Assembly (NCBI GenBank): GCA_002400495.2
Contig: NVQL02000006.1
Location: 1-64,000, forward strand
Direction of reading: 5' to 3'
Source: Alphaproteobacteria bacterium
GTDB lineage: Bacteria; Pseudomonadota; Alphaproteobacteria; Rhizobiales; OSC116
DNA: 64,000 nt
Shown here piece by piece: positions 5,642 to 39,554 of this stretch; positions within the stretch are counted from its first letter, which is position 1, and each line of letters starts with the position of its first letter. The notes beneath the pieces were generated by a model, which saw nothing but the letters and a program-made list of their open reading frames with translations, had not been told where the DNA came from and searched no databases. The position numbers and the translations under genes were made by a program.

Positions 5642-5745
5642 AATTGGAGTTCTGACGCAAGACAGCAATTCAGGGCGGAAACAGTTGTCGCTTATAAAAG
5701 TATTGGGGAGGTTGCCAAGTCAAGGTTATTTAGTCAGATTTAGCG

Positions 5746-21907: not shown

Positions 21908-23647
21908 TTAGTTCTGTGTTGTTAACACCAAAATTTCACCATTGTCTGAGAGTGTGGTGTGTTTCATGTAACAAAAATCAAGTTCACAAAGTTGGCTTTT
22001 TTCAATCACATATTTTTTATAAAATTCAATTTCTTGATTGTATTTATCAAAATTTACATTTGTGTCCAGCACGGTTTCATTTAGGTGATCTGCGCTATAA
22101 ATAATGACATCAGCTTTTTCCTGCCACCCTAAATAATGCCCCCAGAAACGGGTTATTTTATATGTTTCTGTGCTATTGGGCAGGAATAGTTTCGGGTCAA
22201 ATGCTATATCCAGTGTATTGCCATCAATTGTCGACAGATCCGATAAAAACTGTGAAATTTCTTGATATATAACTTGGCTTTTTACGAATTCATCATTTTT
22301 AGTGCGGTCAGACAGATATGAAAACTCTTTGTAACTGTTAGGCGCCCACCATAATAAGGTGATTGTGAGGGTGAGTAGAAGCCAGATATATGAAGCTAGG
22401 TTTTTGAATTTAAAACTTCGGGTTAAATTCACTTCTATAATCGCTACGATGCCCGTGAGCATGAGGCTTGAACCGAGGAATAAGTAAGAGCCCCAGAGTC
22501 GATGGGTGGCTAAGAAGATGGCTAGGTTTAATAGGGTGCCGCCGATAAAAATAACCAGCGGAACAGAATTTGTTAAATTGCCAATGAAGTTTTTTTCTTT
22601 AAATTTTTGTCCGATGAAAATGAACACAATTAAAGCGCTGAGTGATGCAAAAATTATGCTGACTATCGCCGGGGCTATCATCCAATCATTTATGAAATAA
22701 TTTACCCAGGAGAAAATATTAATTGAAGATGAGTCTGCCCCATGTCCAGTATTTAAAAATGTAGACCCACCCCAATAAGCCAAACCAGGTTTAAAACCTT
22801 TTAAATATAGCAAACCAGCCAAACCAAGTGCGGTGGTAAAAATGGCACCAATTAGCGATATATTAGCCAAAATTTGGTTTTTTATAATTTTTGAATGAAG
22901 TGGTCGAATGAGTATTTTATAAGCAAAAATCGATGAAAATATGGTGGGAATTAATATCGGCACGGCTAACGCAAGGCCGATTAAAAAGTAGGCAAAAGTA
23001 TTGATTGTTTTGGTTATGACTGATGTCAAATTGTTGTTTTTGAGACTTTGTAACATGGCTATGAAAACAAAAAACAATATAATCGGAAATAATGAGATTT
23101 TGGCACCAAAAGCAAGGCCAATAAAAATCCAATATTTGCTATCTAACTTCATACTATTCTTATTGAAGAAGTATAAAAATATAGCGGTGAATAATAATTG
23201 AATGGGCTCTGGTTTTGGCATGGTGGCATAATATGAACCAAAGGGAATGGCCAATAAGGCAGCAAATAATATAAAACGCAAAACCCATTGTTTTACGAAA
23301 GTGACGGTTAAAAGCCAAAATGCCGTTATAAGCAGTAACACTTGCAACATACGACCCGCAATAATTTGGCCTTGCTCGCCAAATATTAAATCGGGGATGA
23401 ATGAGAAAATGGCCATAGAGTTCCATACGACGCGGCCATATCGATGATCGCCACCATTATAAACATTCCATAAAAAATCCAATAAGCCATCTGGGTGATT
23501 GATTGGAAACACACCGTCATAGGTGACCAGCTCATCCATAAACAAAGAGTAACGGCCGCCAACCAAGTCTAAATTAGCTAATGTGCTAAAATAGATAAAA
23601 ATAACTGCAATTAGCAATAGTGGGGCTATCTTTAGGTATTTTGACAT
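21908..23647 (-). CDS. GT-C type integral membrane glycosyltransferase-like protein
   Basis: 579 residues with about eleven to thirteen hydrophobic segments. The first extracytoplasmic loop after TM1 contains FMDELVTYDGVFP (about 36-48), an acidic Asp-Glu pair in the place where GT-C enzymes (ArnT/PMT-like) hold their catalytic aspartate. The C-terminal 130 residues form a soluble periplasmic domain with two cysteines. GT-C enzymes use polyprenyl-phosphate sugars and act on the periplasmic side. Here it could decorate the polymer using a lipid-linked sugar made by the neighbouring DPM-like GT2, whose start lies upstream. No specific family name is claimed. Confidence 0.7.
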   Translation of the reverse strand: MSKYLKIAPLLLIAVIFIYFSTLANLDLVGGRYSLFMDELVTYDGVFPINHPDGLLDFLWNVYNGGDHRYGRVVWNSMAIFSFIPDLIFGEQGQIIAGRMLQVLLLITAFWLLTVTFVKQWVLRFILFAALLAIPFGSYYATMPKPEPIQLLFTAIFLYFFNKNSMKLDSKYWIFIGLAFGAKISLFPIILFFVFIAMLQSLKNNNLTSVITKTINTFAYFLIGLALAVPILIPTIFSSIFAYKILIRPLHSKIIKNQILANISLIGAIFTTALGLAGLLYLKGFKPGLAYWGGSTFLNTGHGADSSSINIFSWVNYFINDWMIAPAIVSIIFASLSALIVFIFIGQKFKEKNFIGNLTNSVPLVIFIGGTLLNLAIFLATHRLWGSYLFLGSSLMLTGIVAIIEVNLTRSFKFKNLASYIWLLLTLTITLLWWAPNSYKEFSYLSDRTKNDEFVKSQVIYQEISQFLSDLSTIDGNTLDIAFDPKLFLPNSTETYKITRFWGHYLGWQEKADVIIYSADHLNETVLDTNVNFDKYNQEIEFYKKYVIEKSQLCELDFCYMKHTTLSDNGEILVLTTQN

Positions 23648-23673
23648 GACGAATTCCTGTGTGATGAGAAAAA

Positions 23674-24393
23674 TTATATAATTTTCTTAAGGGCGAATAT
23701 GTATTTAAAAGTTCTGTTTATTAAGTTCCATTTCATTTTAAAACTACCACCACCGCCTTTGGCTTCCCCATGTACACGGTCGGCAAAAATCACGGGTATG
23801 GTGACTATTTTTAAACCGGTTCTCTTGGCCTGATAATAAGCGTATAAATCCAACGAAAAATCACTTGGCGCGGCTTTTTGCATATGTTTTTGGTAGAAAT
23901 TTTTTGAAAATATCTTTGGCTGGGCGTTAATATCAGTCAATTTTACTTTCAGGGTGAATAGCACAACAACAAACATCCCCCAGGTGAATAAAACATCCAT
24001 TAATGGTCGGTTTTGGCGCGCGCCTTTAATGAAGACTTGGTCATGTTCAAAAGATTTATAAAGATTAAAAGCATCAAATACATCTTTGGGGTCGGTTTGC
24101 ATGTCAGCATGGGTCCACGCCAAAACGTTGCCAGATGCACTATCAAGCCCGTCTAAAATATCTCGTCCATAGCCTCCACGTTGTTGTTTAAGAATGAGCT
24201 TAAAATATTGGTGGTTTAATTTTTTAAATAATTGGGTGAGTATTGCAGGGGTTTCATCAGTTGAAAAACCGTCAACGACAATGAGTTCAATGTCGTCTCG
24301 GTCTTTCATTAATTCTTCAAAACGGCGTAGCACCAATGGCATGTTGTCTTTTTCATTAAAACACGGAATGACTATGCTTAGTTTTTGGGTCAT
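23674..24393 (-). CDS. GT2 family glycosyltransferase, DPM/polyprenyl-phosphate sugar synthase-like
   Basis: Family 2 enzyme opening KLSIVIPCFNEKDNMPLVL, with the LIVVDGFSTDETPAIL strand-helix, GYGRDILDGL, and WTHADMQTDP as the metal-binding acidic motif. The layout resembles dolichol- or polyprenyl-phosphate sugar synthases, which load a sugar on the lipid carrier for a GT-C enzyme. The reading frame is open up to 24438. The ATG at 24393 is taken because it overlaps the TGA of the upstream nucleotidyltransferase (ATGA). The GT-C-like gene follows 26 bp downstream, so the two may form a carrier-charging and transfer pair together with the GtrA flippase at 29.5 kb. Confidence 0.85.
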   Translation of the reverse strand: MTQKLSIVIPCFNEKDNMPLVLRRFEELMKDRDDIELIVVDGFSTDETPAILTQLFKKLNHQYFKLILKQQRGGYGRDILDGLDSASGNVLAWTHADMQTDPKDVFDAFNLYKSFEHDQVFIKGARQNRPLMDVLFTWGMFVVVLFTLKVKLTDINAQPKIFSKNFYQKHMQKAAPSDFSLDLYAYYQAKRTGLKIVTIPVIFADRVHGEAKGGGGSFKMKWNLINRTFKYIFALKKII

Positions 24394-25199
24394 ATTTTTT
24401 TTACCAAACTTGGTTCTGCTGCGGAGAATTTTTTCCAATAATCAAGGGTATTCTCATAAACCTCAAAATCGTAAGGCGTGCCCCAACCAATATAGGTAAT
24501 GTCAAAATAACCAACTTTTAAATTGGCATCAATCGCGTATTGAATAACCTGATCAACGTAATATTCGTTATTGACCATATCCTTTTTGGCAACCATGTCA
24601 TCGGTTAATGATACATAGTCGGAGCCTTTTTTAAACCAGAACATCCCGGTTGTTGCGTGATCATTCATCGGGGTGTCACTCACCGTTTGTTTGATGCGAA
24701 TGGCCTTTACCGTCACACCATCTTGTTCGAGTTCAAGCCAGCTATGCGCCAGCGGGTTTTGAGCGATGTTGCTATCATTGGTATGGCTGATGACCAAAAC
24801 GTCAAATGTTTCACGCGCGGCGTCAAAACCAGCTTGATCAACAACCATTCCGTTGTCGCAAGGGCCGATGAATAGGTCTTCATCATTATCGATAAATTCT
24901 CGGGCCACCAATACGCCAGTGGCCTGTCCAGTTAATTCTGTGTCATGGATAAAGCTCACACGGGGAAAAAATTGTTGAATGGTCGCCTCGGTGCCGTTTT
25001 GTTTGTGGAAGTCTCTGTCCACGCATATAAGGGTGTTTTTGGGGTCATCAACACCTGGAATGTCTTTAATGGCACAAACAACCATTGGTAATTTTTCGCC
25101 AGTTAAGCGATAGGTTGTGGGGATGCAGGGTTTATTGTCTTTGTAACCTGCATCGACAAAACGTTGGCCGCGCCCACCCATTGGTAAAAGTATAATCAT
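24390..25199 (-). CDS. Sugar (or polyol) phosphate nucleotidyltransferase-like protein 1
   Basis: NTP-transferase (GT-A Rossmann) protein. The N-terminal IILLPMGGRGQRFVDAGY holds the glycine-rich pyrophosphorylase loop followed by NKPCIPT, with the usual lysine. FIGPCDNGMV is the metal-binding acidic strand. It is smaller (269) than RmlA or GalU and lacks a C-terminal beta-helix. It sits 1 bp after a second NTP transferase of the same fold, and both belong to the overlapping 23.7-30.6 kb module. It may activate a phosphorylated sugar or polyol with a nucleotide, but one of the two could bind product without catalysis. Substrate unknown. Confidence 0.75.
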   Translation of the reverse strand: MIILLPMGGRGQRFVDAGYKDNKPCIPTTYRLTGEKLPMVVCAIKDIPGVDDPKNTLICVDRDFHKQNGTEATIQQFFPRVSFIHDTELTGQATGVLVAREFIDNDEDLFIGPCDNGMVVDQAGFDAARETFDVLVISHTNDSNIAQNPLAHSWLELEQDGVTVKAIRIKQTVSDTPMNDHATTGMFWFKKGSDYVSLTDDMVAKKDMVNNEYYVDQVIQYAIDANLKVGYFDITYIGWGTPYDFEVYENTLDYWKKFSAAEPSLVKKI

Positions 25200-25200
25200 G

Positions 25201-25992
25201 TTAGTTATTCCATTGCTTAATATTGTCTATCCAGAGGTTAAACTCGTTTAAGTCTTCAGGTGTGCCCCATTGACAAAAATGGCTTACATTGGCGGGAATA
25301 TATACATTTAGGCCGTCCTCAACCAATAAATTATAAACCAAACTGTTATAATATTCGCCATTGAGATTCATGTCTTTTTCGACCATTAATTTTAGATATT
25401 TTTTGGCCAACTTCACTGAACCAAAATAATATACACCCGGGGAATGTAAGGCTTTTGATTTGTCTTGTTCCCATGAGAATTTTTCGCGAATTTCTATTAG
25501 ATTGTTGTTTTCATCAATTTTACATGAGGCGTATAAATTATGCGCGGGTAATAGATGCGGGTGAAAACCTGTGTAACATGGTACAGCACCTTCAGGGTTG
25601 TTTTGGTTTATATATTTAACAAAGCCATCAAAATCCCACTGCATATAATAATCACAATAGGTGATGAGCACGGGCTTGTTGTCATCTAGGCTATCTAGCC
25701 CTTGCAAACAAGCATGCACGGGGCCTTTCTTATGGCCCTCAATGCCAATTATATTGGCTTTAGAATCAGTGTTTATAATTTCTTGGCGCATATGGGTTTC
25801 AGCCAAATGATCATGCCGACAAATATAGGTCGATGACTGTAGGTTATCTGGAAACATAGAGCGCACCCAAGAAATCATCGGCCGACCTTGCACTTTAATT
25901 AATGGCTTGGGTATTTTATAACCAGCCTTTAGAAACCGACTGCCGGTGCCTGACATTGGTATTAAAAGTTGAATGTCTTCAGTGCGGATCAT
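25201..25992 (-). CDS. Sugar (or polyol) phosphate nucleotidyltransferase-like protein 2
   Basis: Second nucleotidyltransferase-fold protein, 263 residues. The opening LLIPMSGTGSRFLKAGYK is followed by IPKPLIKVQGRPMI, a well-kept nucleotide and lysine motif. ITYCDYYMQWDF carries the metal-binding acid. It ends FCQWGTPEDLNEFNLW, a piece also seen in shortened form in its neighbour (GWGTPYDFEVYENTLDYW). The shared C-terminal motif and fold suggest an old duplication or a working pair. Its start overlaps the stop of the GDPD-like gene (ATGA). The donor it makes is unknown. Confidence 0.75.
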   Translation of the reverse strand: MIRTEDIQLLIPMSGTGSRFLKAGYKIPKPLIKVQGRPMISWVRSMFPDNLQSSTYICRHDHLAETHMRQEIINTDSKANIIGIEGHKKGPVHACLQGLDSLDDNKPVLITYCDYYMQWDFDGFVKYINQNNPEGAVPCYTGFHPHLLPAHNLYASCKIDENNNLIEIREKFSWEQDKSKALHSPGVYYFGSVKLAKKYLKLMVEKDMNLNGEYYNSLVYNLLVEDGLNVYIPANVSHFCQWGTPEDLNEFNLWIDNIKQWNN

Positions 25993-26624
25993 TTATCACC
26001 CCATAGGTTTGGTTTTTTGGTACAAACAGCATCAATCTGAATGCCGTTATCTTGTAACTGCTGTTTAAATTTTTGTATATCAGACAGGTCATGCCCTTGA
26101 AGCTCTGGAGAGACAAGACATATTTTATAACCCGCATTTATAAGCTGTGCATGATTGTCCGCGTTCAGTGGTAAATGGGTGAAGCAATCAACCCAAACCC
26201 ATTTGGCCTTACCAGCAAAACCAAGGGCATATTCAATGGCTTCGCGCTCACTAAAACGCACCGCAAGGTTGTCAATTTCAAAACCATCAATTTCTTGTTG
26301 TATGGCTTTCTCGGCATAGATAGCGAAGAATGGCATTGAAAGATCCAGAAAAAACCAGTTTTTTATATTGAACTTATTCATCAGTTCAATACATTGCATT
26401 TCCACACCTTCGGTTTTCACGTTTAAAATCATCGGGCCTTTATGTTTCCATTGGGCCAGAAAATCTTCAAATTTTTCTAATTTGGGGTTTTGATGATGGT
26501 TAAATGGATCATGATGTAAGACCAAATCATCATTGTGATAGCGAATGTCTAACTCAATGCCATTTTCAAGCGGCACATTTTTAAGTTGCTCTACAGTGTT
26601 GATGCGGTGGTTAATATATTGCAT
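25989..26624 (-). CDS. Glycerophosphodiester phosphodiesterase-like TIM-barrel protein
   Basis: The N-terminal pattern fits the GDPD/PI-PLC-like superfamily: NHRIN (His6, Arg7), GIELDIR (Glu24, Asp26), and LVLHHDP (His38, Asp39), the metal and catalytic residues of that fold. Then come LNVKTEG, and IDGFEIDN where the other metal ligands are expected. It is shorter (211) than ordinary GDPDs and has no signal peptide, so it is cytoplasmic. Housekeeping glycerophosphodiester cleavage is unlikely in this position. A role in making or editing an activated polyol phosphodiester for the polysaccharide is an inference from the neighbours. Confidence 0.7.
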   Translation of the reverse strand: MQYINHRINTVEQLKNVPLENGIELDIRYHNDDLVLHHDPFNHHQNPKLEKFEDFLAQWKHKGPMILNVKTEGVEMQCIELMNKFNIKNWFFLDLSMPFFAIYAEKAIQQEIDGFEIDNLAVRFSEREAIEYALGFAGKAKWVWVDCFTHLPLNADNHAQLINAGYKICLVSPELQGHDLSDIQKFKQQLQDNGIQIDAVCTKKPNLWGDK

Positions 26625-26646
26625 TCGGCAGGTCCGATGTTAATGG

Positions 26647-27516
26647 TTATTTGGCAAACTTTTTGCGGTATTTTTCTTGTTCCATATTGGCAACAAAGTT
26701 AACTTCATACTCATTTAAATATTTGGTTTGCAAATTATGCGTTTGAATGGAGCTGACGATAAATTCATAAGACGCCAAGGTATCTCTGGCGGCTTTGGTT
26801 TTCAGCAGGCTTTCTGAGGCGGCTATGGTGTAGACAATTTGGTCAGGAAATAAAACCTGTTGACGGCTGGGCAATGGGGTGTCCGGGTCATATTCGTGTA
26901 GCATCAAATTTAGATCTTGCTTGAAATGCTTGCAAATTTGTCCATTCACATGGGTGTGCAACTGCTCGGTTTGGTCAGATGTTTTGCCACTTATAATGAT
27001 GCCGTGATTTTCTAAAAAGACAATGGATGGGTCAATGCTATCAGCCTGAAGGGCTTTATATACTGCCAAAGATAGATGGTTGCCTGGTGATGCATATGGT
27101 ATCCAAACTGAATTTGGAAACAGGGTTTGTGCGATGTTTTTACCTTCGACTGCACAGGTTAAAATATTTGCATAAATTGAATGAGAGTGCAGTACATATG
27201 TATCTAACAAAGCGTGAAAACCAGTTTCTAAAGATGGTAAGTTTTGGCCTTTATCCATCGCGCCTTCGGTTAAATCTGTATCTGGATTATTGTCGAGAGC
27301 GGCTTGCGCAATGTTTTGTCGAATTGTTTGAAAGTTCGTAAGGCAATAACCAGCATCTGGCTCGACATCGCTTAGCATATAACCCGAGGCTTTAATGGCC
27401 ATATGATCACCATCTTTAACCGATGTATTGCCGCCACCACCTTGCACATAAGCGGTGTATTGTCCGACATTTTTTGACATTTGAGAGAAGTTTTTCAAAG
27501 CGGCTTGGTTGATCAT
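26647..27516 (-). CDS. Class II aldolase/adducin family protein
   Basis: Zinc-dependent aldolase fold. QGGGGNTSVKDGDHMAIKASG near the N-terminus is the phosphate-binding glycine-rich segment. LHSHSIYANIL provides the metal-binding His-x-His pair and FLENHGIIISG the third histidine region. The usual members cleave or form sugar phosphates such as L-fuculose-1-phosphate or act as epimerases or dehydratases. At 289 residues it is longer than FucA (about 215), with an extra C-terminal helical region. Its ATG overlaps the stop of the GT-C/kinase fusion gene (ATGA). It could make the carbon skeleton that the two nucleotidyltransferases activate; this is inferred. Confidence 0.8.
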   Translation of the reverse strand: MINQAALKNFSQMSKNVGQYTAYVQGGGGNTSVKDGDHMAIKASGYMLSDVEPDAGYCLTNFQTIRQNIAQAALDNNPDTDLTEGAMDKGQNLPSLETGFHALLDTYVLHSHSIYANILTCAVEGKNIAQTLFPNSVWIPYASPGNHLSLAVYKALQADSIDPSIVFLENHGIIISGKTSDQTEQLHTHVNGQICKHFKQDLNLMLHEYDPDTPLPSRQQVLFPDQIVYTIAASESLLKTKAARDTLASYEFIVSSIQTHNLQTKYLNEYEVNFVANMEQEKYRKKFAK

Positions 27517-29558
27517 TTAATGTCCTCAAATATGTAATAAATAATGAGCAGAGTTGACACGCCAATTTGCCCAGATGTCCAATGTGTTTGGTAAATGCCA
27601 ATGTCTTCTAAACTTGGTATATTTAGCTCGGCAATTTCATGTAAATCTTCGGCGCTAATTGAGCCCTTTATGATGATGGTTTGGGTGTCGTCATCGTTAT
27701 ATTCATGGCCTATGTCTAAGTCGGGATATTGGTTTAATTGGTCTAATAATGTTTCGAAATAAATTGAATTGCCACAATTGAATTTTGTATACAGCTCGGT
27801 AACGGCGTCTAAATTTTTTAAATCAGTGATTTCATTGACAGGCTGGGTCGAAATAATGATATCGGCGTAATTTGCTTGTATATCAATATATTTTTCAGAA
27901 TCTTTTGCCCGTGAAGAGATTTGTTCGAGGATTTTTTCAATGGTGTAGCCACGTTTTTTTGTATCCCGAACAATTTTCCAATGCTTCTGTAAATTCTTGT
28001 CTGGGCTGACAAACACTTTCAGGTCATATAAATCGCGCAATTTTTTTAGATATAGAGAATGCAAACCTTCTAAGATAATGAGCTTTTTAGAATGAATTTT
28101 TAAGGCGTCAGTAAATTGTCCATTATCGTGATTGTAGTGACGACGTTTAATATCATGCCCTTGTTTTAAATACTGAATTTGCCGTACTTCTTGATGAAGT
28201 TCGTTTGCACGCGGGTTTAAATGAGTGAATTCACTCCATTTTGCATGGCCGCGTTCCCATTTGTGCATATCGTCGCCACGAATAATGGTTACATTTTTGT
28301 TGCCAAATATGTCTGAAAGTGCATTTGAGATTGTAGATTTCCCCACGCCAGAATCGCCGCTAATACCCATTAAGTATGGTTTCGAGGTGAGTTTATTTTT
28401 TGCGTAAGTGTCGAAGCCTTGGCGGTATATCCATAAGCAATTGAGAATTAAGGTTGTTTGCAAAAGGGTGAATATTAAATTTTTGATTCCGTCCATCTCA
28501 AACGGTTGCCCATTGATCATGATGGTTGGTGTTAAATAGGAGTCAATGAGGAAAAACAGAATGTAAAAAACTTGCAGCGCGATGAACAGAATAAACGATT
28601 TTCCGCGCCCTTGCGCATAAAAATATACCAAGAATGGAACCACCCAATAATACCAGCCAGCGGTGGGTACAATGAATAATAAAAGGCTGCCAAACGAAAA
28701 CCCTAAAAACATAACAAATATATTGCGATTATATCCCTTAATTATGTAGGCGCGCAGCAACAAGAATAAATAACTCGCAGGAATAAAGTAGAAATAATTC
28801 GAGTCGCCATAAGCCAAATAAGTGTCTAAAAGCTTGCTTTGTTGATCATTATTTAAAATCATTTGCCAAAAATCGGGACTAGATATAAATGGTGAATTGA
28901 CAATAATAAATGTCATAAGACATGCGATGCTACCATATATAATTAGTTTGATATCAATGCGTGTTTTCAAGCAATAAATGTAAAAAAATGGGATGACAAT
29001 TGCAATGTGGGTTTTTGTTGCCACGGCAAAACCTAATATTGCAAAAGCCAAAATTAAACGATCTTTTAACAGCATGAATAGGCTGGCAAATACCAATGCC
29101 ATTGGCAACACATCGAGCTGGTTATGAACATAATTGATATAAATTAATACTGGCGAAAGCCAATAAAACCAAAGGACATATTTCTGGTGCATTTTAAGCC
29201 ACGCGCTCAAAATATATAAGATCAATATGTCAGCTGCTAAAATAGGCAAATGAGCCAATATGTTGGCGCTTGCCCCGCCGTTTGAAAAAGAAATAAAGCT
29301 ACCAAATATAAGCCTCGGTAGTGACATAATATACAGCATGCCAGCAGGGTAGGGGAATGCTTCGCCCTCGCTTCGGGCCAAATAATATTGGTAAGGGTTT
29401 TCGAAAAAGGACGAAACAAAATAGTCCGTAAACGGCATGAAATATTGCGCAAAAAGCCCCTGAACGAAGAAAAATGCAAATATTAATTTTATCGCCAAGC
29501 CAACCAAAAATTCAGGTGTTTTGAAAATATTATGCACTGGATTTGTTGTTAAAGACAA
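27513..29558 (-). CDS. Fusion of a GT-C-like membrane domain and a uridine-kinase-like P-loop domain
   Basis: One uninterrupted 681-codon frame. Residues 1-about 385 have around ten hydrophobic segments resembling a mannosyltransferase-type GT-C membrane domain. From about 390 a soluble P-loop kinase follows: YLMGISGDSGVGKSTISNAL (Walker A), then IIRGDDMHKWERGH and LIILEGLHSLYL, as in the uridine kinase/phosphoribulokinase family, and RDTKKRGYTIEKIL. The last 80 residues have no clear assignment. The C-terminal kinase should face the cytoplasm. Uridine-kinase-like proteins can phosphorylate small polyols or sugars, so the domain may supply a phosphorylated intermediate to neighbours. The gene overlaps gtrA by 29 bp and the aldolase by 4 bp. 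No frameshift is seen, so the fusion looks real. Confidence 0.75.
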   Translation of the reverse strand: MSLTTNPVHNIFKTPEFLVGLAIKLIFAFFFVQGLFAQYFMPFTDYFVSSFFENPYQYYLARSEGEAFPYPAGMLYIMSLPRLIFGSFISFSNGGASANILAHLPILAADILILYILSAWLKMHQKYVLWFYWLSPVLIYINYVHNQLDVLPMALVFASLFMLLKDRLILAFAILGFAVATKTHIAIVIPFFYIYCLKTRIDIKLIIYGSIACLMTFIIVNSPFISSPDFWQMILNNDQQSKLLDTYLAYGDSNYFYFIPASYLFLLLRAYIIKGYNRNIFVMFLGFSFGSLLLFIVPTAGWYYWVVPFLVYFYAQGRGKSFILFIALQVFYILFFLIDSYLTPTIMINGQPFEMDGIKNLIFTLLQTTLILNCLWIYRQGFDTYAKNKLTSKPYLMGISGDSGVGKSTISNALSDIFGNKNVTIIRGDDMHKWERGHAKWSEFTHLNPRANELHQEVRQIQYLKQGHDIKRRHYNHDNGQFTDALKIHSKKLIILEGLHSLYLKKLRDLYDLKVFVSPDKNLQKHWKIVRDTKKRGYTIEKILEQISSRAKDSEKYIDIQANYADIIISTQPVNEITDLKNLDAVTELYTKFNCGNSIYFETLLDQLNQYPDLDIGHEYNDDDTQTIIIKGSISAEDLHEIAELNIPSLEDIGIYQTHWTSGQIGVSTLLIIYYIFEDIK

Positions 29559-29913
29559 AATATTTGGTACCTATAAAATTACAGCACGTTGTCACGACAA
29601 TCGCACCGACATTAGCATAAACTGGAGAGACGCCAGCAACTTGAACAAAAAATTCCAGACATCCTATTGATATAATTAAGGAACACGCATATACACCGCC
29701 ATAGCGTAAGATTTGGCTTTTATCACTAGAATCGGCTTGGTAAGTCCATTTTTTATTGAGCGGATACCCCACTAAAAGACCAGACAGGAAGCCAATTGCT
29801 GACGCTAAATTATAATATATATTAAACTGTTTATACAGTATAAAGAAAATTATGTAATTCACAACTGTGGCAAGACCGCCGACAATAAGGAACCTAATTA
29901 GTTGAGCCATCAT
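29530..29913 (-). CDS. GtrA family small membrane protein
   Basis: 127 residues with four hydrophobic segments and the GtrA pattern: FLIVGGLATVVNYIIFFIL at the N-terminus, GYPLNKKWTY after TM2, and a C-terminal NFIGTKYFVF. GtrA proteins are thought to flip polyprenyl-phosphate-linked sugars to the periplasm for GT-C enzymes. The gene overlaps the GT-C/kinase fusion, and a DPM-like GT2 lies further down, giving the classic set of charging enzyme, flippase and GT-C acceptor enzyme. It abuts the HAD gene, whose stop codon begins at 29914. Confidence 0.85.
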   Translation of the reverse strand: MMAQLIRFLIVGGLATVVNYIIFFILYKQFNIYYNLASAIGFLSGLLVGYPLNKKWTYQADSSDKSQILRYGGVYACSLIISIGCLEFFVQVAGVSPVYANVGAIVVTTCCNFIGTKYFVFNNKSSA

Positions 29914-30573
29914 TTAGTTAATTTCCACTTGATATGCGGTTATTCCAGCTTGTTGTGCGCCTATAATGTCTTTTTCTAAACTGTCACCAATCATGATTGT
30001 ATGTTCAGGAGAGACAGAGACTTTTTCGAGAGCTTTTAGATACATTTTTGCAGCGGGCTTTTCAGCACCAACCTCTTCGGAGGTTACAAGATGTGAAATA
30101 TATTTGGTGAGTTCAAGTTTTTGTAATTTCTTAATTTGTATACTGGCCTGCATATCGGTAACCGCACAAACAGGGATGTTTTTTTCGTAACATTGTTTTA
30201 AAAATATGTAAGCAGGTTTATATATGGCCATATTTGCAATTAGCTGCTGCCAATATAATTCTTCAAAATGCTGCGCATGTACATATGTTGGTTTCAAATT
30301 AATTTGTTCAAATAATTTTTGGAAAGCAAATAAACGCGAGCGACAAGCGCCTTGTGGTTTTAATTGTTCGGTCACATTTGTGCGGTGGTTGCGATAAGTT
30401 TGAATGAAGACCTCTTGTGTCCAATCAATAGTGGAAGAGAATTTTTTTGAAAACTCTTCATAACACTGACGAATTGCAATTTCATGAGCGGTTTTATAGG
30501 AGTAAAGCGTGTCATCAATGTCAATTAATACGGCCTGTATATTGTGTAAATCTATTTTTGAGAAATCATCCAT
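29914..30573 (-). CDS. HAD-superfamily phosphatase (subfamily IA-like)
   Basis: HAD hydrolase with all motifs: VLIDIDDTLYSY (nucleophile Asp18, acid Asp20), AVTDM as motif II, EVGAEKPAAKMYLKAL with the motif III lysine, and IMIGDSLEKDIIGAQQAG as motif IV. A helical cap lies between motifs I and II. It is a soluble 219-residue protein. In this cluster it should remove a phosphate from a sugar or polyol phosphate intermediate, the usual step before or after aldolase, kinase and nucleotidyl transfer. Substrate unknown. Confidence 0.85.
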   Translation of the reverse strand: MDDFSKIDLHNIQAVLIDIDDTLYSYKTAHEIAIRQCYEEFSKKFSSTIDWTQEVFIQTYRNHRTNVTEQLKPQGACRSRLFAFQKLFEQINLKPTYVHAQHFEELYWQQLIANMAIYKPAYIFLKQCYEKNIPVCAVTDMQASIQIKKLQKLELTKYISHLVTSEEVGAEKPAAKMYLKALEKVSVSPEHTIMIGDSLEKDIIGAQQAGITAYQVEIN

Positions 30574-31598: not shown

Positions 31599-33605
31599 CT
31601 AGTTTTCGTTTAACCAATTTCTGGATTCCATTTTGCTGATGATGTAATTGGATAGCAATTCTGCACCTAGATGATTGAGGTGATCATCATCTGCATAAAG
31701 CGGCAAATTAGCTTTGGTTGCTATGCAGCGATCCGCGATATCGTTGTTACAAAATAAAATTTCTGGTTTTATTATCAATAGATTATCATGCTGTTGAATT
31801 CTATCCAATTGTTTGTAAACATTTTTATTTCTTGCTTTGAACACTGCGTGGCTTGTAGATAAGCCGGTTTTATTCATCCCATGTATACGTCTTTTGGTTA
31901 AATATTCAGGCACCATCCAACCGACTTCGGGAATTGGATAAACAAGAATGACTCTTTTTCCATTTTCAATCAGGTTGTTGACTATTTTATTTGTAAGATT
32001 GCCAATTAAATTATACCGATCTTCGGCTTCTTGGTGGGTTAATCTTTGGTGCTTCTCCTGCATAGTACGGGATTCTACTCCACCTTCTTGATTATCAAAT
32101 GGAGTGTTTTCATATGTGCTTACCCATCTTGAAACCAAAACAATTGTTTTTATTTGGGGGTTTCCAACAATATAATTATAGACCTTTTTAATGCCCTCGC
32201 TGCAGTTGGGGTTATTTATGTTATTTGGGTTGTAAATACCTATAATGGGGGGGCAACCATTGTGTGTAATGTCCTGTAAACCAAGCTCATATTGTGAGAG
32301 AGCGTTGGTGAATTGCTCGCTTATTGCATTTGCATGACTATCACCTAAAAGAATTACCGATGGATCTGAACTAGAGCTACAGGCATTTTTGGGGTCGGTA
32401 TATGCGTCGCAAGCGCGATTTTTCCGCGCGCCTCCCGTATCGGTGTATTTAGCCGCCGCAATGGCGTCTGGATTAAGGCGAGCTGGTAGGCCTCTGGTTA
32501 GATGCCCAACAATTCCAAATGCGATGAAAAAGCATGACATTAAAAATGCGATTGTAAATATTTTTTGACGTGAAAAATTTTGCTTATTCCTAAATGGCTG
32601 TTCAATAAATTTCCAAGATAAGTATGCAAAAACAAGGCTAACAATCGCTAAAATAATGAATATGAGTTCGGATGGTGGTTCAAACATTCGTATTCTGGCG
32701 AAGGAGAAGATGGGCCAATGCCATAAATAAGCGCTATAACTGATGAGACCAATTGTGACCATTGGCCGTAACCCTAATAATTTTCCGACCAGATTTTCAG
32801 GGTTGGCAAAGGCAATGACTAAGAATGTTCCACCGACAGGAATGAGCGTCCAAAAACTAGGAAATGGTACATTTTGGTCAAAATTTATGATGGCATAAGC
32901 TATTAAAACCAGCCCAATAATCGATAGAATATTGGCAATTTTGTGGTTTATCGCTTGCCAATAATGAATGCTAATTGCCAGTAGAGACCCAAAAAGCAAC
33001 TCCCATGCGCGGGCAGGTAAAAGATAGAATCCCTCTACAGGGCGGACGAGTGATATATAATCTGCCCATAATAGACTGCTGATTGTTAACAATGCCAAAA
33101 TAATAATAAGGGCTTTATGCTGGATTTTTTTTAGCAATAATAATAACAAGGGGAAAAATAGATAGAATTGTTCTTCGATTGCTAATGACCAGGTGTGTAA
33201 AAGCGGTCGTAGTTCTGAACTGGATGCAAAATACCCAGCCTTTTGCCAAAAGTAGATATTTGATGACATGAAGTTTACAGATATAATGCTTTGAGAAAAT
33301 CTTTTGAATTGAAGTGGTGTCATCCATTGCCAAGCAAAGATAATGGTAAGTAATAAAATAAAAAATAAAGCGGGAAAAATTCTTCGAATGCGGCGTTCAT
33401 AGAAGTTTATTATCGAGAATTCGCCATTGTGAATTTCTCTATAAATAATGGTTGTGATGAGATAACCACTGATCACAAAAAAAACATCAACCCCAACATA
33501 ACCGCCGCTAAACCAACTTAAACCCGCGTGATATAGTATAACAGGAAGAACGGCAACGGTGCGCAGACCATCTATTTCTTTGCGGTAAGCGTTATTTGGT
33601 TTCAT
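31599..33605 (-). CDS. Acyltransferase-3/SGNH two-domain polysaccharide O-acyltransferase
   Basis: OafA-like protein. The membrane part (about 1-370, ten or so segments) opens with YRKEIDGLRTVAVLPVILYH, where the conserved Arg-His signature sits, then GVDVFFVISGYLI. The soluble C-terminal part is SGNH-like: VILLGDSHANAIS near 420 with the nucleophile serine, and YADDDHLNHLGAELL near 638 with the Asp-His pair. It should move acetyl groups from the cytoplasmic side to the polymer outside. It overlaps rmlB by 14 bp. A seven-G run at about 32247-32253 is a possible but unproven slippage site. Confidence 0.9.
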   Translation of the reverse strand: MKPNNAYRKEIDGLRTVAVLPVILYHAGLSWFSGGYVGVDVFFVISGYLITTIIYREIHNGEFSIINFYERRIRRIFPALFFILLLTIIFAWQWMTPLQFKRFSQSIISVNFMSSNIYFWQKAGYFASSSELRPLLHTWSLAIEEQFYLFFPLLLLLLKKIQHKALIIILALLTISSLLWADYISLVRPVEGFYLLPARAWELLFGSLLAISIHYWQAINHKIANILSIIGLVLIAYAIINFDQNVPFPSFWTLIPVGGTFLVIAFANPENLVGKLLGLRPMVTIGLISYSAYLWHWPIFSFARIRMFEPPSELIFIILAIVSLVFAYLSWKFIEQPFRNKQNFSRQKIFTIAFLMSCFFIAFGIVGHLTRGLPARLNPDAIAAAKYTDTGGARKNRACDAYTDPKNACSSSSDPSVILLGDSHANAISEQFTNALSQYELGLQDITHNGCPPIIGIYNPNNINNPNCSEGIKKVYNYIVGNPQIKTIVLVSRWVSTYENTPFDNQEGGVESRTMQEKHQRLTHQEAEDRYNLIGNLTNKIVNNLIENGKRVILVYPIPEVGWMVPEYLTKRRIHGMNKTGLSTSHAVFKARNKNVYKQLDRIQQHDNLLIIKPEILFCNNDIADRCIATKANLPLYADDDHLNHLGAELLSNYIISKMESRNWLNEN

Positions 33606-34602
33606 TTAAATACCATCTCACTGTTTTTTGAATGCCAGATGAGAAATTTTCTTCGGCGCGCCAATTGAGGTCGTTTTCAATTTTTGTGGCATCTATGGCA
33701 TAACGGCGATCATGGCCGGCACGGTCTTCAACAAAGGTAATCAATTGTTTATATGAGTTTGATGTCGGCACCAATTCGTCTAATATTTCGCAAATAACGT
33801 TGGCAATGTCTAAATTAATAAATTCATTTCTACCGCCAATGTTATATGATTCACCGTTGATGCCATTGTGATATGCTAAATCGATGCCTTTGCAATGATC
33901 CAAAACGTAAAGCCAGTCGCGTATATTCTTTCCATCGCCATAAATAGGAATGGGTTTGCCCGCCAAAGCGTTTCTAATAATCGTCGGAATTAGCTTTTCT
34001 TGGTGTTGTTTGGGCCCGTAATTATTAGAACAATTGGTGATGATTATATTTAAGCCATAAGTTTCTTTATAACTACGTATAATCATATCGCTGCTGGCTT
34101 TAGACGCTGAATAGGGCGAATTGGGCGCGTAGGGTGTGTCTTCCGTGAACAGGCCTGTTTCGCCTAAAGTGCCATAGACTTCATCGGTCGAAATATGATG
34201 AAATTTGCAATGGGCATATTGATCTTTATATTGGTTGGGTTTTTGCATCCAGTATTTATAGGCAGCATCAATGAGCGTAAAACTGCCCAATACATTGGTT
34301 TCTATAAATATATTTGGGTTGGCGATGGAATTATCGACATGGCTTTCAGCAGCAAAATGAATAACCCCAGTGATGTTATATTTCACAAATATACCATCGA
34401 CTAACTTGCGGTCTCGAATGTCACCCTCAATAAAGTGATATTTTGGGTTATCAGCCACTTCATGTAAATTATCTAAATTAGCGGCATAGGTTAGGGAATC
34501 CAAATTAATAACATGATAATCAGGGTGCTGTTCTAGAAAAAATGGAATGAAATTACTGCCAATAAACCCTGCACCACCGGTAACGAGAATATTTTGTTTC
34601 AT
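33592..34602 (-). CDS. rmlB: dTDP-glucose 4,6-dehydratase
   Basis: Extended short-chain dehydrogenase that makes dTDP-4-keto-6-deoxyglucose. The NAD loop is [16 protein letters not shown] at the N-terminus. The active-site strand [12 protein letters not shown] holds the Asp-Glu pair, and [17 protein letters not shown] the YxxxK. Length (336) is normal. Its ATG overlaps the stop of rmlA by 4 bp. RmlC and RmlD are absent nearby, while FdtA- and FdtB-like proteins are present, so the keto-sugar is probably led to a 3-amino sugar rather than to L-rhamnose. Confidence 0.95.
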
Positions 34603-35471
34603 GAAATTTCCTTAGAAATTTCAACCAAATATTGTCCATAATTGGTTTTAATGAGCGGTTGGGCTAGGGTCAATAATTGCTGTTTGTCGATCCAGTTATT
34701 TCTAAATGCAATTTCTTCAATACAAGCTATCTTATAGCCTTGCCTATTTTCAATGGTGTGCACAAATTGTCCAGCTTCGATAAGACTATCATGTGTGCCC
34801 GTGTCTAACCAAGCAAAACCGCGGCCTAATAGTTCAACATTCAAATCGCCACGCTTTAAATATGCCTGATTGATAGAGGTAATCTCCAGCTCGCCACGTT
34901 CAGATGGCTTGACTTTTTTTGCCATCTCAACCACATCATTATCGTAAAAATACAAACCGGTGACGGCGTAATTCGAACGCGGGTTTTTGGGTTTTTCTTC
35001 AAGGCTAATGGCCACTTGATTTTCGTCAAATTCGACCACACCAAACCGTTCGGGGTCCTTGACATTGTAACCAAATATTGTGGCGCCTGTCTGCCTGCCG
35101 GAAGCAGCGAGCAGCATATCACTAAAATATTGTCCATAAAAAATATTATCGCCCAATACCAAAGCCACATTATCGTCGCCAATAAAATCTTCGCCCAAAA
35201 TAAATGCTTGTGCCAAGCCGTCTGGTGTTGGCTGTTCAACATAAGTGAATTTCATACCCAAATCGGTACCATCGCTTAGCAGGCTTTCAAATTTTGGCAA
35301 ATCTTCAGGCGTTGAAATGATCAAAACATCATTTATACCTGCCAACATCAGTACTGATAATGGATAATATATCATCGGCTTGTCGTAAATTGGCAAAAGC
35401 TGTTTTGAAACACTCTTGGTCAATGGATATAAACGCGAGCCGCTGCCACCTGCTAAAATAATACCCTTCAT
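34599..35471 (-). CDS. rmlA: Glucose-1-phosphate thymidylyltransferase
   Basis: Makes dTDP-glucose, the start of the dTDP-sugar branch. The N-terminal [20 protein letters not shown] and the following [15 protein letters not shown] are the RmlA signatures. [10 protein letters not shown] carries the metal-binding Asp, and FGVVEFDE and [15 protein letters not shown] are also characteristic. The ATG at 35471 is chosen over 35480 because it overlaps the TGA of the aminotransferase (ATGA) and gives the family's usual start. 290 residues is normal. It is coupled to rmlB downstream. Confidence 0.95.
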
Positions 35472-36556
35472 TTTGTCCACCCATTCATAATTTCACAAAC
35501 CTTTAAAATATCATCTTCTGTGTGGAAATAAGATATAGGAAGGCTTAATGTGGTTTGATGAATTTCATCACTTATTGGGAAGTCTGTTTCGGTGATGATG
35601 TTCTTCATTGCAATTTGGTTTTGCGGCGCAACGGGGTAATGAATTTCAGTTTTCACCTCGTTATCAAGCAGATATTGCTTTAACGCGTCTCTTTGTTGAA
35701 CCCGCACATTAAAGATATGATAAACATCAAAATAATCAGGGTGAACCTGTGGCTTGATAAATTTGTCATCCAAATTTTTTAAATAGATTTTTGCAAGGCT
35801 TCTTTTATGCGCGGTAATCTCATCTAAATATTTAAGTTTAACCAATAGAAATGCTGCCTGAATCTCATCTAACCGAGAATTATAGCCAACATAATCATTA
35901 TGATATTTAACCGCACTGCCATAGTTACGTAATGATTTTATTGTTTTGGCATAATCATTGTCTTGGCAGGTAACTGCACCCGCATCGCCCAATGCTCCCA
36001 AATTTTTTGTGGGGTAGAAACTAAAACAACCAATGCCAAATTCACCAACTTTTTTGCCTTTAAATTGCGCGCCATGGGCTTGTGCGCAATCTTCAATAAT
36101 TTCTAAATTATGTTGTTGTGCTATTTGGCTTATGGCGCCCATGTCACAGGCTTTTCCATATAAATGCACCACCATAATGGCCTTGGTTTTGGCGGTAATC
36201 CTTGCTTCGATTTTAGACGGGTCGATATTATATGTTGCCATATCTGGCTCGACTAATATTGGTTTATGCCCAGCCTTAACAATGGCTAGAATGGTCGCGA
36301 TATAAGTGTTAGATGGGACAATGATTTCACTGTTAGCTGGGAAATTAAAGGCGTCAACCGCCAATATTAACGCATCCAAACCATTGGCCACACCGACGCA
36401 ATTTTTTACGTTGCAATAATTTGCAAATTCACTTTCAAATGCGGTTACATCTTTGCCCAGAATATACCACCCGCTATTGACGAACTCATCAAAGCTAGAT
36501 TTGAATTCTGCGAAAAATCGTTGGTTTACTTTTCTTAAATTCTCATATTCTATCAT
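35468..36556 (-). CDS. DegT/DnrJ/EryC1/StrS aminotransferase, FdtB/QdtB-like
   Basis: PLP-dependent sugar aminotransferase, 362 residues. [17 protein letters not shown] near 54-70, [19 protein letters not shown] (PLP-ring Asp region) and [18 protein letters not shown] with the Schiff-base lysine are conserved. [17 protein letters not shown] follows. The FdtA-like ketoisomerase overlaps it by 14 bp, and RmlA and RmlB lie downstream, so the likely product is a dTDP-3-amino-3,6-dideoxyhexose (Fuc3N or Qui3N). The N-acetyltransferase that usually completes the set was not found here. Confidence 0.88.
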
Positions 36557-36908
36557 TTATATAATCATCTTTATCGTAATATTCAGAGGCCATAACCAAT
36601 AAAGTTGCATTCTCACTAAATTGATCCATCGTGTGCCAATCTTCAGGCGCCAAAAGCAAGCATTTATGCGGGCTATCTAACTTATAATTAACTTCACTTT
36701 TACCATTATCAACAAAAACACGGCATTTACCACCTAAACATATTAAAGCCTGTATGGTTTTTTTATGCCGATGGCCACCGCGTATATCATCGCCTTTGAC
36801 ATTGAAAATATAATAAAATCGTTTCACTTCAAATGGCAGTAATTTTTCGACAACGATCAGGTCACCTCTTTCATCACTAATTGTTTTAAATTCTAGTAAT
36901 TTGGCCAT
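36543..36908 (-). CDS. dTDP-4-keto-6-deoxyhexose 3,4-ketoisomerase, FdtA/QdtA-like cupin
   Basis: Small cupin of the WxcM-like/FdtA family that moves the keto group from C4 to C3 of dTDP-4-keto-6-deoxyglucose. [17 protein letters not shown] near the start, [10 protein letters not shown], then [18 protein letters not shown], where the histidines of HRH are catalytic in relatives. [14 protein letters not shown] follows. It has 121 residues, slightly short, but all core strands are visible. Whether the C4 epimer is fucose- or quinovose-like (FdtA versus QdtA) cannot be told by eye. It sits one base from the GT8-like gene (TAATG overlap). Confidence 0.88.
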
Positions 36909-37846
36909 TAGTTCCTCAGTAATCTTTTTATTTTATAGACATGATATTCGTTTTTCATCTTGCGTTTTAATATCCGCAAAGGGTTTTTCCAATGAAACGC
37001 TGGTTTTTCTCCAGTGCCATTAAAGTCAGAAGGATCCTGTTTTTTTAAGGTGCTCGTAAGCTTTACAATATGCCTTATATAAGGAACGTAGAATGTTTCC
37101 AAATTAGCAGATGACAACACATAAACACTTAAATTCACTCGATTGTCGGGTAAAAATTTTACCGCGTGAAAATGAAAAAAAACTATTTTTGTTTTGCGGT
37201 TATAATTTTGCATATTCCACGGGGCGATGCCACCACCGAGATTTTTGAGCACATGTACGCAATCAAATCGCTCAGTCCAATTATCAAGATATTTCTGATC
37301 TCCAAATTTGCCATCTTCATGCCTAGCATAGCACCATTCAAGGCAAGCATTGACCCACCAATTCAGCACATGCATGCCTTCTGGGGTGTTTTTAAAAGTC
37401 ATAAATTGCACGCAATATATACCGCTTCTGAGGCTTTGGTCATATGTTGCCGTATATCTATGTTCGGTAATGAGCACTGATTTTGCGCCCATTTCTTCAA
37501 TTAAAACCGATGGATCGGAAAAAAAATATAAATCGGCATCTAAATAGGTGCAATTGTCCAAATTATAAGTTTCGATACAGTATTTTATGGTGGAAGGTGT
37601 ACTGGTCCAACAATATTCTCCAGCTGTGCGGCTGGCTTTAATGGCTAGCAGTTTCTCATTTTCAAATTCTTTCAAACCAATCACTGTCATATGATCGAGA
37701 TTTAATGTCTGTAGTAAGGTCTCGCTTCGGTCATCAAATGCAAAAATATAAAGATGAAATGAACGGCTATGTTGCTTTAACGATTCATACATCGCCATGC
37801 CACGAGACAGGTAATTTGAGTTAAACAATGTGCAATAATTATGCAT
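36908..37846 (-). CDS. GT8-like glycosyltransferase
   Basis: GT-A type protein with NYCTLFNSNYLSRGMAMYESL at its start and CTYLDADLYFFSDP as a GT8-like DxD motif. A later GDQKYLDNW and the GGGIAPWNMQ stretch resemble lipopolysaccharide galactosyl- or glucosyltransferases. The frame is open back to 37894, but the ATG at 37846 is preferred: GGAA lies just upstream and the overlap with the methyltransferase gene is then eight bases. The C-terminus has a basic tail (RILKRKMKNEYHVYKIKRLL) that could bind the membrane surface. Substrate unknown. Confidence 0.78.
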   Translation of the reverse strand: MHNYCTLFNSNYLSRGMAMYESLKQHSRSFHLYIFAFDDRSETLLQTLNLDHMTVIGLKEFENEKLLAIKASRTAGEYCWTSTPSTIKYCIETYNLDNCTYLDADLYFFSDPSVLIEEMGAKSVLITEHRYTATYDQSLRSGIYCVQFMTFKNTPEGMHVLNWWVNACLEWCYARHEDGKFGDQKYLDNWTERFDCVHVLKNLGGGIAPWNMQNYNRKTKIVFFHFHAVKFLPDNRVNLSVYVLSSANLETFYVPYIRHIVKLTSTLKKQDPSDFNGTGEKPAFHWKNPLRILKRKMKNEYHVYKIKRLLRN

Positions 37847-38639
37847 TTTTTTTCCAAATACTTCCCTTAAAAACATAATCCTGAGTTTGGCCACCTAAAG
37901 CGTCATATTCTTCAATAAGTTCATAGCCTTTGGAGACAAAATAGTCATTAAATTTTTGTGTTTCAAAAAGCCAACATGGATAGCTTGCGTTATAAATTTG
38001 TGGATTTACAATTTGTAACTTTATTACATCGCGTGATTGCGTGCTGAACGGAGTTCTGTCTACTAAAATAAATTTAAAATCATGAATTAATATGCTGTCC
38101 AACATTTCATATGGTTTCTCTAAATATTGCATGACGCTCGACAGCGCTAATATTTCGGTTTTTTGTTGCTTTACGCAGGTGTCGACATCGTAATAAAAAT
38201 GCAATTCATCATTTTCAAATTCTTGTTTACCGGACTTTACAAAATGTTCTTGTTCAACAATATTCCACGAAACATTGTCAAATTTATCAAAGAATTTTTG
38301 ATTTTGAAAATAACTACTTCCTAAACTCCCACCAAAATCTAAAACTCTTAAATTCCCAACTTTTGTAGCTGCGAACATTAAGCCAGCTAAAAAAGGCCAT
38401 GAATACTGTATTTTATCAAATATAACACTGTCTCGTTCATAAACAGCCTCACCATTTTTAACTTTAAGAATTGATGCTTTTACTTTTGAGAATATTTCGT
38501 CCTGATCATAGCCTTGAGATGCATCTTTAGCGCTTTGCCAATCAGCATAATTGCCTTTCCAGCCATATTTGTCTTTTTTCAAACCTTGAATGAAGGTAAG
38601 AATTATAGGTGGGATACATGACTTTAGAAATTTTTTCAT
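37839..38639 (-). CDS. TIGR04325-type putative methyltransferase
   Basis: SAM-dependent methyltransferase-like protein (266 residues) resembling the LIC12133/TIGR04325 family common in surface-polysaccharide clusters. RDSVIFDKIQYSWPFLAGLM precedes motif I, VLDFGGSLGSSYFQ (about 100-113), a variant SAM loop. SSVMQYLEKPYEMLDSIL and FILVDRTPFS match later family motifs. An N-terminal hydrophobic and basic segment may give membrane contact. It likely methylates a sugar of the repeat, but this is not shown. It overlaps the GT gene upstream by ATGA. Confidence 0.8.
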   Translation of the reverse strand: MKKFLKSCIPPIILTFIQGLKKDKYGWKGNYADWQSAKDASQGYDQDEIFSKVKASILKVKNGEAVYERDSVIFDKIQYSWPFLAGLMFAATKVGNLRVLDFGGSLGSSYFQNQKFFDKFDNVSWNIVEQEHFVKSGKQEFENDELHFYYDVDTCVKQQKTEILALSSVMQYLEKPYEMLDSILIHDFKFILVDRTPFSTQSRDVIKLQIVNPQIYNASYPCWLFETQKFNDYFVSKGYELIEEYDALGGQTQDYVFKGSIWKKNA

Positions 38640-39523
38640 AACAATTTTCTCATTCTTGAGACAATTCTTTCAAAATAATTTTTCTTGAGCGATTTGAAAA
38701 ATAGTTCCATCTTTTTTCGGGCTTGTGGATTTTCTTCTGTCTGAATTTTTTCAGAAGGTTCAAATTTACCCAATTGGGTATCATAATGGCTGGTTGTGTC
38801 GCTATGTGTGCCACTATTGTCATTGCCAACATTATGCACCAAACTCTTCCCTGGATATAAGGTCAGCATTCCTTTTAAGAAAGTTGCAATATACCATCTG
38901 ACCGCCCAACTGCTAATTTGGCCGTCGATTTGCATTTCGAGCATTTGAATATAGTCATAACTATGATTAAAATTCACATCGCGTTGTAGTTTTCTTTGTT
39001 TAACCTGTGTCAATAAGGCTTCTCCATCAGGCTCAAAATTTTGCCACGCGCGTTTCCATGTTGCCCAGCCCCAGCAGTCAGCACCTTTTATAAAAAATGT
39101 ATCTGGTAATCCCTCAATGGGGTAAATATAGCCATGGATGGAGGCAATGTTTTCATCATCTTGATAGAGGTCTAGGGAATGGTTCATATAGGTTAGAAAG
39201 TCTGTGCTAGTGACCAGATCATCTTCAAGCACAATCACCCGACCATATTGGTTTACCACCTCTGTCACACCATCAATGATGGAATTAGCCAAGCCCCAAT
39301 TTTGGGCTCGCTCTAAAATGGTTACGCTTTTAAAACCGGTTATGGTTTTAAGATAAGCGCGCACCGAAGCCACATCCTGTTGAGCATTTGGATTTTTGGC
39401 GGCATCAGCATAAATAATAAGTTGGCTACGGCCTGCAAGTGTATTGGCTTTTAGGGCTTCAACAGTCTGTTGAGTGTGCGACAACCGATTGTAAACAAAT
39501 AGTATGATCGGTGCAACATTCAT
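38636..39523 (-). CDS. GNT-I-like/GT2-type glycosyltransferase, paralogue of the 19.6 kb gene
   Basis: GT-A glycosyltransferase, 295 residues. PIILFVYNRLSHTQQTVEAL, then VIVLEDDLVTSTDFLTYMN as the acidic metal motif, and DCWGWATWKRAW. The same layout and several shared words with the protein at 19604-20518 show a common origin; their C-terminal acceptor regions differ, so they probably add different sugars. It is followed by the methyltransferase with a 4-bp overlap. Thirty-one bp separate it from the asparagine-synthase-like gene. Confidence 0.85.
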   Translation of the reverse strand: MNVAPIILFVYNRLSHTQQTVEALKANTLAGRSQLIIYADAAKNPNAQQDVASVRAYLKTITGFKSVTILERAQNWGLANSIIDGVTEVVNQYGRVIVLEDDLVTSTDFLTYMNHSLDLYQDDENIASIHGYIYPIEGLPDTFFIKGADCWGWATWKRAWQNFEPDGEALLTQVKQRKLQRDVNFNHSYDYIQMLEMQIDGQISSWAVRWYIATFLKGMLTLYPGKSLVHNVGNDNSGTHSDTTSHYDTQLGKFEPSEKIQTEENPQARKKMELFFKSLKKNYFERIVSRMRKLL

Positions 39524-39554
39524 AGCGCTAGCCCTAATTCGTTAGATCTTAAAA

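Follow-up and report, generated by a model that had tools for sequence, protein, structure and literature searches.

The question raised by this locus is which building block is made by a compact set of genes within a polysaccharide cluster, and how it is attached. The window, a stretch of 64,000 nucleotides from an alphaproteobacterial contig (NVQL02000006.1), was described in an initial annotation as holding an unassigned activated-sugar or polyol module with eight features. All eight were found on the minus strand, where most overlap or are separated by 1-22 bp (Table 1). The kinase domain listed there is present, not as a stand-alone protein but at the C-terminal end (residues ∼389-676) of a fusion protein of 681 aa. 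The N-terminal ∼380 aa of the fusion form a multi-spanning, GT-C-like domain, for which the GT87 match was weak (20.6 bits, under the cutoff of 25). An AF2 model of the fusion built from three sequences reached a pLDDT of only 40. The module probably reaches as far as a second membrane protein of 579 aa, because a homologue of this protein adjoins the module in another locus (L022), and the block spans 21908-30573. The 579-aa protein had no Pfam match and is a probable GT-C transferase.

Table 1. Genes and domains of the block, with window coordinates and the basis of each assignment.
Feature	Coordinates	Strand	Basis
HAD-family phosphatase, 219 aa	29914..30573	-	PF00702 80 bits
GtrA-type flippase, 127 aa	29530..29913	-	PF04138 96 bits, cutoff 26
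GT-C-like membrane domain of 681-aa fusion (gene 27513-29558)	28545..29531	-	module HMM residues 10-338
Phosphoribulokinase-like kinase domain of 681-aa fusion	27531..28394	-	PF00485 151 bits
Class II aldolase, RhaD/FucA-like, 289 aa	26647..27516	-	PF00596 61.4 bits, cutoff 22.2
GDPD-fold phosphodiesterase-like protein, 211 aa	25989..26624	-	AF2 model and structure comparison
Nucleotidyltransferase NTP1, 263 aa	25201..25992	-	PF12804 34 bits; NTP1 group in tree
Nucleotidyltransferase NTP2, 269 aa	24390..25199	-	NTP2 group in tree; weak PF00483, rmlA_long
DPM/GtrB-like GT2	23674..24438	-	PF00535 68 bits
Second multi-spanning membrane protein, probable GT-C transferase, 579 aa	21908..23647	-	homologue adjoins module in L022

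Pfam and NCBIfam matches were well over noise for the HAD protein, GtrA, the aldolase, the kinase and the GT2, and weak for NTP1 and NTP2. The GT2 probably starts not at the listed TTG but at an ATG at 24393, which gives a 4-bp overlap with NTP2. The block lies in a Wzx/Wzy-type polysaccharide cluster with Glycos_transf_4, a WecG-type transferase, Wzy_C, a flippase, Wzz/Wzc, a Wza-like protein and GDP-mannose genes; rml-type genes lie at 33592-35480 by our own reading of the ORFs. Four consecutive minus-strand proteins of the polysaccharide cluster (36908-41309) had no Pfam match at E 1e-5.

Conservation of the set was examined by a co-occurrence analysis, as the initial annotation had suggested. 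The first search covered 150 genomes, mostly of the same order, and found the GDPD-like gene in few of them and in 0/5 genomes of the same genus. Samples at class, order and phylum level were then searched and gave more GDPD-like genes. Approximately 20 kb around each match was inspected, together with plasmid loci of Azospirillum brasilense, E. coli and Hirschia baltica, and module-derived HMMs were run. The resulting 20 loci, defined by a module-type GDPD-like gene, cover Proteobacteria, a Rickettsiaceae MAG, three plasmids and two phage contigs. Most were fetched via the GDPD-like gene, so that its presence in 20/20 is by construction, while the other counts are not: GT2 20/20, NTP1-NTP2 19/20, GT-C/kinase 16/20, HAD 15/20, aldolase 15/20 and GtrA 14/20. 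Gene order was largely kept, with recurring adjacencies of GT-C/PRK (16 loci), NTP1-NTP2 (16), GT2-GDPD (16) and PRK-HAD (13). Since the same components stand together in 20 loci with recurring adjacencies, the clustering is beyond chance. The core of NTP1-NTP2, aldolase, HAD and GDPD-like protein is complete in the window, where both NTP groups are represented and all genes are adjacent. An aldolase missing from the cluster was usually found elsewhere in the genome (G137, G041, G769), as were NTP1-NTP2 in G769. One further genome (G172) is incomplete, and one (G737) is a real exception, having the NTPs, GT2 and GDPD-like gene without the module aldolase, kinase and HAD. L023 lacks the kinase and aldolase, and its module contains at that point (5659-8700) an FGGY kinase, an ASRT-domain protein and a RhaI-type isomerase. 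The FGGY kinase and RhaI were considered as functional stand-ins and rejected, as they look like an inserted rhamnose-catabolism operon.

The whole module was found on plasmids in the A. brasilense, E. coli and H. baltica loci. The E. coli copy (L018:6022-14984, IncR plasmid NZ_CP145712.1) is carried by small plasmids in two isolates, one from human stool and one from a bullfrog; the two are identical over 9 kb. The set was also present in two IMG/VR contigs, both with a terminase match, which was weak in the contig of L053. The flanks of L053 encode a CI-like repressor, an Rz spanin and a tail-fibre protein, and a 665-aa protein adjoining the GT2 weakly matches a phage glucosyltransferase. 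In the Rickettsiaceae MAG the block lies between what we read as ordinary cell metabolism and transport genes. From its distribution the module looks mobile, because the GDPD gene is absent from five congeners, and the unit seems to travel whole and independently of any particular surrounding polysaccharide cluster. The set is conserved together in bacteria, plasmids and phages.

In the phylogenetic tree the nucleotidyltransferases formed two groups, NTP1 (100/99) and NTP2 (99/94), each with sequences from the window, from other bacteria and from phages. Enzymes from other GDPD-containing clusters ("class B") formed a third group. Over its full length, a phage NTP1-NTP2 fusion shared ∼40% identity with the plasmid proteins of Azospirillum, Hirschia and E. 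coli. The tree shows one and the same pair of enzymes, NTP1 and NTP2, in the bacterial and the phage setting. Both are probably active, since each retains conserved G, R, K and D positions of the kind expected in a nucleotide site.

The GDPD-like protein matched no Pfam family at E 0.1. An AF2 model from five sequences (pLDDT 82.6) has the GDPD TIM-barrel fold, with a best Z of 15.2 and an rmsd of 2.9 over 181 residues to the T. tengcongensis GDPD, and GDPDs filled most of the top ranks of the structure comparison. Among 13 relatives R7, E24, D26, H38, D39, K70 and E72 were invariant and H6 nearly so (Gln in L008). The pair H6 and H38 and the E-x-D motif E24/D26 are thus in place, which we take to be the catalytic histidines and metal ligands of GDPDs; the third acidic metal position of canonical GDPDs seems to be Asn. 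As this position seems to be Asn and Pfam fails to recognise the family, the protein was named GDPD-fold and not GDPD.

The closest PDB sequences to the kinase were phosphoribulokinases (PRKs) and their relatives, and its NCBIfam PRK07429 score of 207.7 bits is under the curated cutoff of 236. The compared ATP and substrate residues were kept in 26 module kinases save at two positions. The two substrate-phosphate arginines expected of a PRK do not occur together, R64 being present in 26/26 and R67 in 0/26 (presumably the Chlamydomonas PRK numbering), and the P-loop Ser/Thr is replaced by Asp in half of the 26. The aldolase is a class II enzyme by PF00596, and H110, H112, H171, E97, S44 and G45 were invariant in 16 sequences. 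We take the three histidines to be the zinc ligands and E97 to be the catalytic glutamate; the phosphate-binding Ser-Gly is also kept. The protein is far under the cutoff for bifunctional RhaD (TIGR02632, 50.3 bits against 567.75) and has no dehydrogenase domain, and the HAD protein is under that for RuBP 5-phosphatase (NF053830, 140 bits against 330). Gene fusions join GT-C with the kinase in bacteria and the kinase with the aldolase in phages.

PRK phosphorylates C1 of ribulose-5-phosphate, and known members of its family act at C1 of a ketose phosphate. RhaD/FucA-type class II aldolases make or break ketose-1-phosphates from DHAP and an aldehyde. In haloarchaea a HAD enzyme followed by a FucA-type aldolase was proven to act on ribulose bisphosphate and ribulose-1-phosphate, with the aldolase assayed in its synthetic direction as well (PMC9700705). 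This non-carboxylating pentose bisphosphate pathway shares with the module the sequential use of HAD and aldolase on a ketose bisphosphate and a ketose-1-phosphate. It differs in being catabolic, in using a ribose-1-phosphate kinase and R15P isomerase instead of a PRK-like kinase, and in having no NTPs, GDPD or transferases. As a whole it was rejected as the pathway of the module, from which its isomerase and ribose-phosphate kinase are missing.

The attachment genes resemble those of gtrABC-type glycosylation. GtrA is well above its Pfam cutoff and a GtrB/DPM-like GT2 (PF00535) lies in the same operon; in phage locus L053 the orthologue of this GT2 was matched to phrog_841, a GtrB-like family of O-antigen conversion. 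By analogy, GT2, GtrA and GT-C may work like gtrABC conversion systems. Phage O-antigen conversion operons (gtrA, gtrB and a type-specific gtr) have in common with the module a GtrA flippase, a GtrB-like GT2 and a probable multi-spanning transferase, and in L053 the module sits in a lysogenic-conversion-like position. Known gtrABC operons draw on host UDP-sugars, whereas the module adds five or six building-block genes of its own. As such it would be a conversion system of the phage type that supplies the building block itself instead of relying on sugar nucleotides of the host.

The building-block half also recurs without the attachment half in glycan cassettes of large phages. Viral contigs were scanned with the aldolase alignment, giving 67 loci, or 65 after removal of two contigs already seen. 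Within 4.5 kb of the aldolase, these 65 loci, which include near-duplicate contigs, contained NTP1 in 55, a short GDPD-like protein in 55, a small HAD in 54, NTP2 in 51, a GT61-like gene (our own sequence reading) in 45 and a module-type kinase in 10. The short GDPD, HAD and GT61-like models were seeded from three of the 65 loci, so that their counts are not independent. One arrangement (L068 and relatives) consists of a kinase-aldolase fusion followed by NTP1, HAD, GDPD-like, NTP2 and a GT61-like gene. Large-phage glycan cassettes with NTP1-NTP2, aldolase, small HAD, short GDPD-like and GT61-like genes were seen at L068:9356-14070, at L084:7367-11426 and in ∼50 other viral loci. Queries with the NTP and GDPD-like proteins matched largely the same Synechococcus phages. 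A GenBank example is Synechococcus phage S-SM2 (SSM2_204-208), which has, like the module, an NTP1-NTP2 fusion, class II aldolase, small HAD and short GDPD-like protein in one row. Such cyanophage cassettes differ from the module in that a GT61-like transferase replaces GT2, GtrA and GT-C and the kinase is usually absent. A jumbo-phage review covers cyanophage sugar clusters in general terms, and the set itself is absent from it. Two small S-SM2 proteins annotated as phosphoheptose isomerase (SSM2_207 and SSM2_210, NC_015279.1, L137) look HAD-type, and their counterpart in L084 starts with a DIDETIC motif. In L077 a phage nucleotidyltransferase is apparently fused to an RpiB-like isomerase domain (5121-6278, our own sequence reading), adjoining a KdsC-like HAD and a PfkB-like kinase.

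The building-block half is thus a conserved core, with a product undescribed in the open literature searched. No description of a pathway using the set was found there, in agreement with the initial annotation, which knew of no named one. That annotation could have failed if the genes were not conserved together or belonged to known pathways with other partners; both points were examined and neither overturned it. The activated-sugar part of its proposal is supported. A sugar is likelier than a polyol, as the transferases that accompany the set are glycosyltransferases in type (GT2 or, on our own reading, GT61-like). A core of five or six enzymes common to bacteria, plasmids, temperate phages and cyanophages would offer an entry to a new activated sugar.

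We propose, with about an even chance of being correct, that the block is a mobile, self-contained module for decorating surface glycans, built in two halves and running via a ketose-1-phosphate to an NDP-sugar carried on undecaprenyl phosphate. The kinase, HAD phosphatase and RhaD/FucA-type aldolase would supply or interconvert the ketose-1-phosphate, most likely that of a pentulose or a comparably short sugar. NTP1 and NTP2 would, with the GDPD-fold protein, convert it to an NDP-activated sugar. GT2 would load the sugar onto undecaprenyl phosphate, GtrA would flip the lipid-linked sugar and the GT-C proteins would transfer it outside the inner membrane. The acceptor in the window would most likely be the Wzx/Wzy-type polysaccharide of the same cluster. 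A ketose-1-phosphate is proposed because PRK-like and RhaD/FucA-like families handle C1-phosphorylated ketose phosphates. Its central place, for and against which the odds are roughly even, follows from this family knowledge and from the haloarchaeal sequence of HAD and FucA-type aldolase (PMC9700705). The kinase is absent from two genomes that are 99% complete (G137 and G529) and from most phage cassettes, and therefore cannot be the sole route.

Two other readings were weighed, each of which we consider unlikely. The first is a teichoic-like side group, in which one NTP would make a CDP-activated polyol or ketose that is joined by a phosphodiester, the GDPD-fold protein would edit or transfer phosphodiesters, and GT2, GtrA and GT-C would independently add an ordinary sugar such as glucose. 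It would account for the GDPD fold and fits an NTP family that also serves non-sugar phosphates, for example inositol-1-phosphate (a weak match of a related NTP). However, no TagF- or LicD-type phosphotransferase was recognised among the module genes, the phage core adjoins a GT61-like gene (our own reading) without GT2 or GtrA, and the GT-C/kinase fusion ties the two halves together. The second is that two sugars are made, NTP2 supplying GT2 and the trio of NTP1, aldolase and kinase providing a different sugar to a second transferase, so that a disaccharide would be added. The two NTP groups are indeed distinct and ancient, and the window has two membrane transferase candidates, but in nearly all loci NTP1 and NTP2 are neighbours or a single fused protein, and phages with other transferases also keep the pair, which suggests one pathway.

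A more specific and entirely hypothetical version, which we regard as quite improbable, is that the core makes an NDP-activated ketose, with the GDPD-fold enzyme and NTP2 acting between an NDP-1-ketose and an NDP-2-ketose. The kinase or aldolase would provide ketose-1-phosphate, which NTP1 would turn into NDP-1-ketose; the GDPD-fold enzyme would free NMP via a 1,2-cyclic phosphate that is opened to the anomeric ketose-2-phosphate; and NTP2 would activate the latter to NDP-2-ketose for GT2 or a GT61-like enzyme. If true, this route would account for the joint occurrence of two nucleotidyltransferases with a phosphodiesterase-like protein. A ketose reading, if true, would also open to testing the activation of ketose residues in bacterial surface glycans, for which we know of no settled account. 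Xylulose, fructose and sorbose residues are known from such glycans, for example in Campylobacter capsules (PMC9561416), and the NDP-ketose route would offer a path to them. It is very improbable that the kinase, HAD and aldolase serve in pentose catabolism, taking ribulose bisphosphate to DHAP and glycolaldehyde, and lie in glycan clusters by chance. The haloarchaeal RuBP phosphatase and Ru1P aldolase do come near the named functions (PMC9700705), but the kinase forms fusions with a membrane transferase-like domain (bacteria) and with the aldolase next to NTP1 (phages), and the association recurs in unrelated genomes.

The CDP-2-glycerol (gtp1-3), CDP-ribitol, phosphocholine, phosphonate and methyl-phosphoramidate pathways were considered and set aside, as their partner sets differ from that of the module. 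The V. cholerae entry 4evw was also considered as an informative relative and proved too distant. The "class B" loci (for example L011, L012 and L138) resemble the module in their pair of NTPs, their HAD and their GDPD-like protein, with capsule or LPS genes nearby, and differ in that their NTPs form their own clade and the set is without a PRK-like kinase or GT2/GtrA. Two class B genomes tested for the module-type aldolase had none, only weak generic aldolases. The NTP tree and this result do not support class B as the same pathway. A DNA search for E. coli relatives of class B gave none. The class B set consists of an NTP, a GDPD-like protein, a beta-PGM-like HAD and an NTP, often with a cupin, and was seen near capsule or LPS genes at L011, L012, L025-L028, L050-L052, L065, L066 and L138, on plasmids sometimes beside WavE-family genes.
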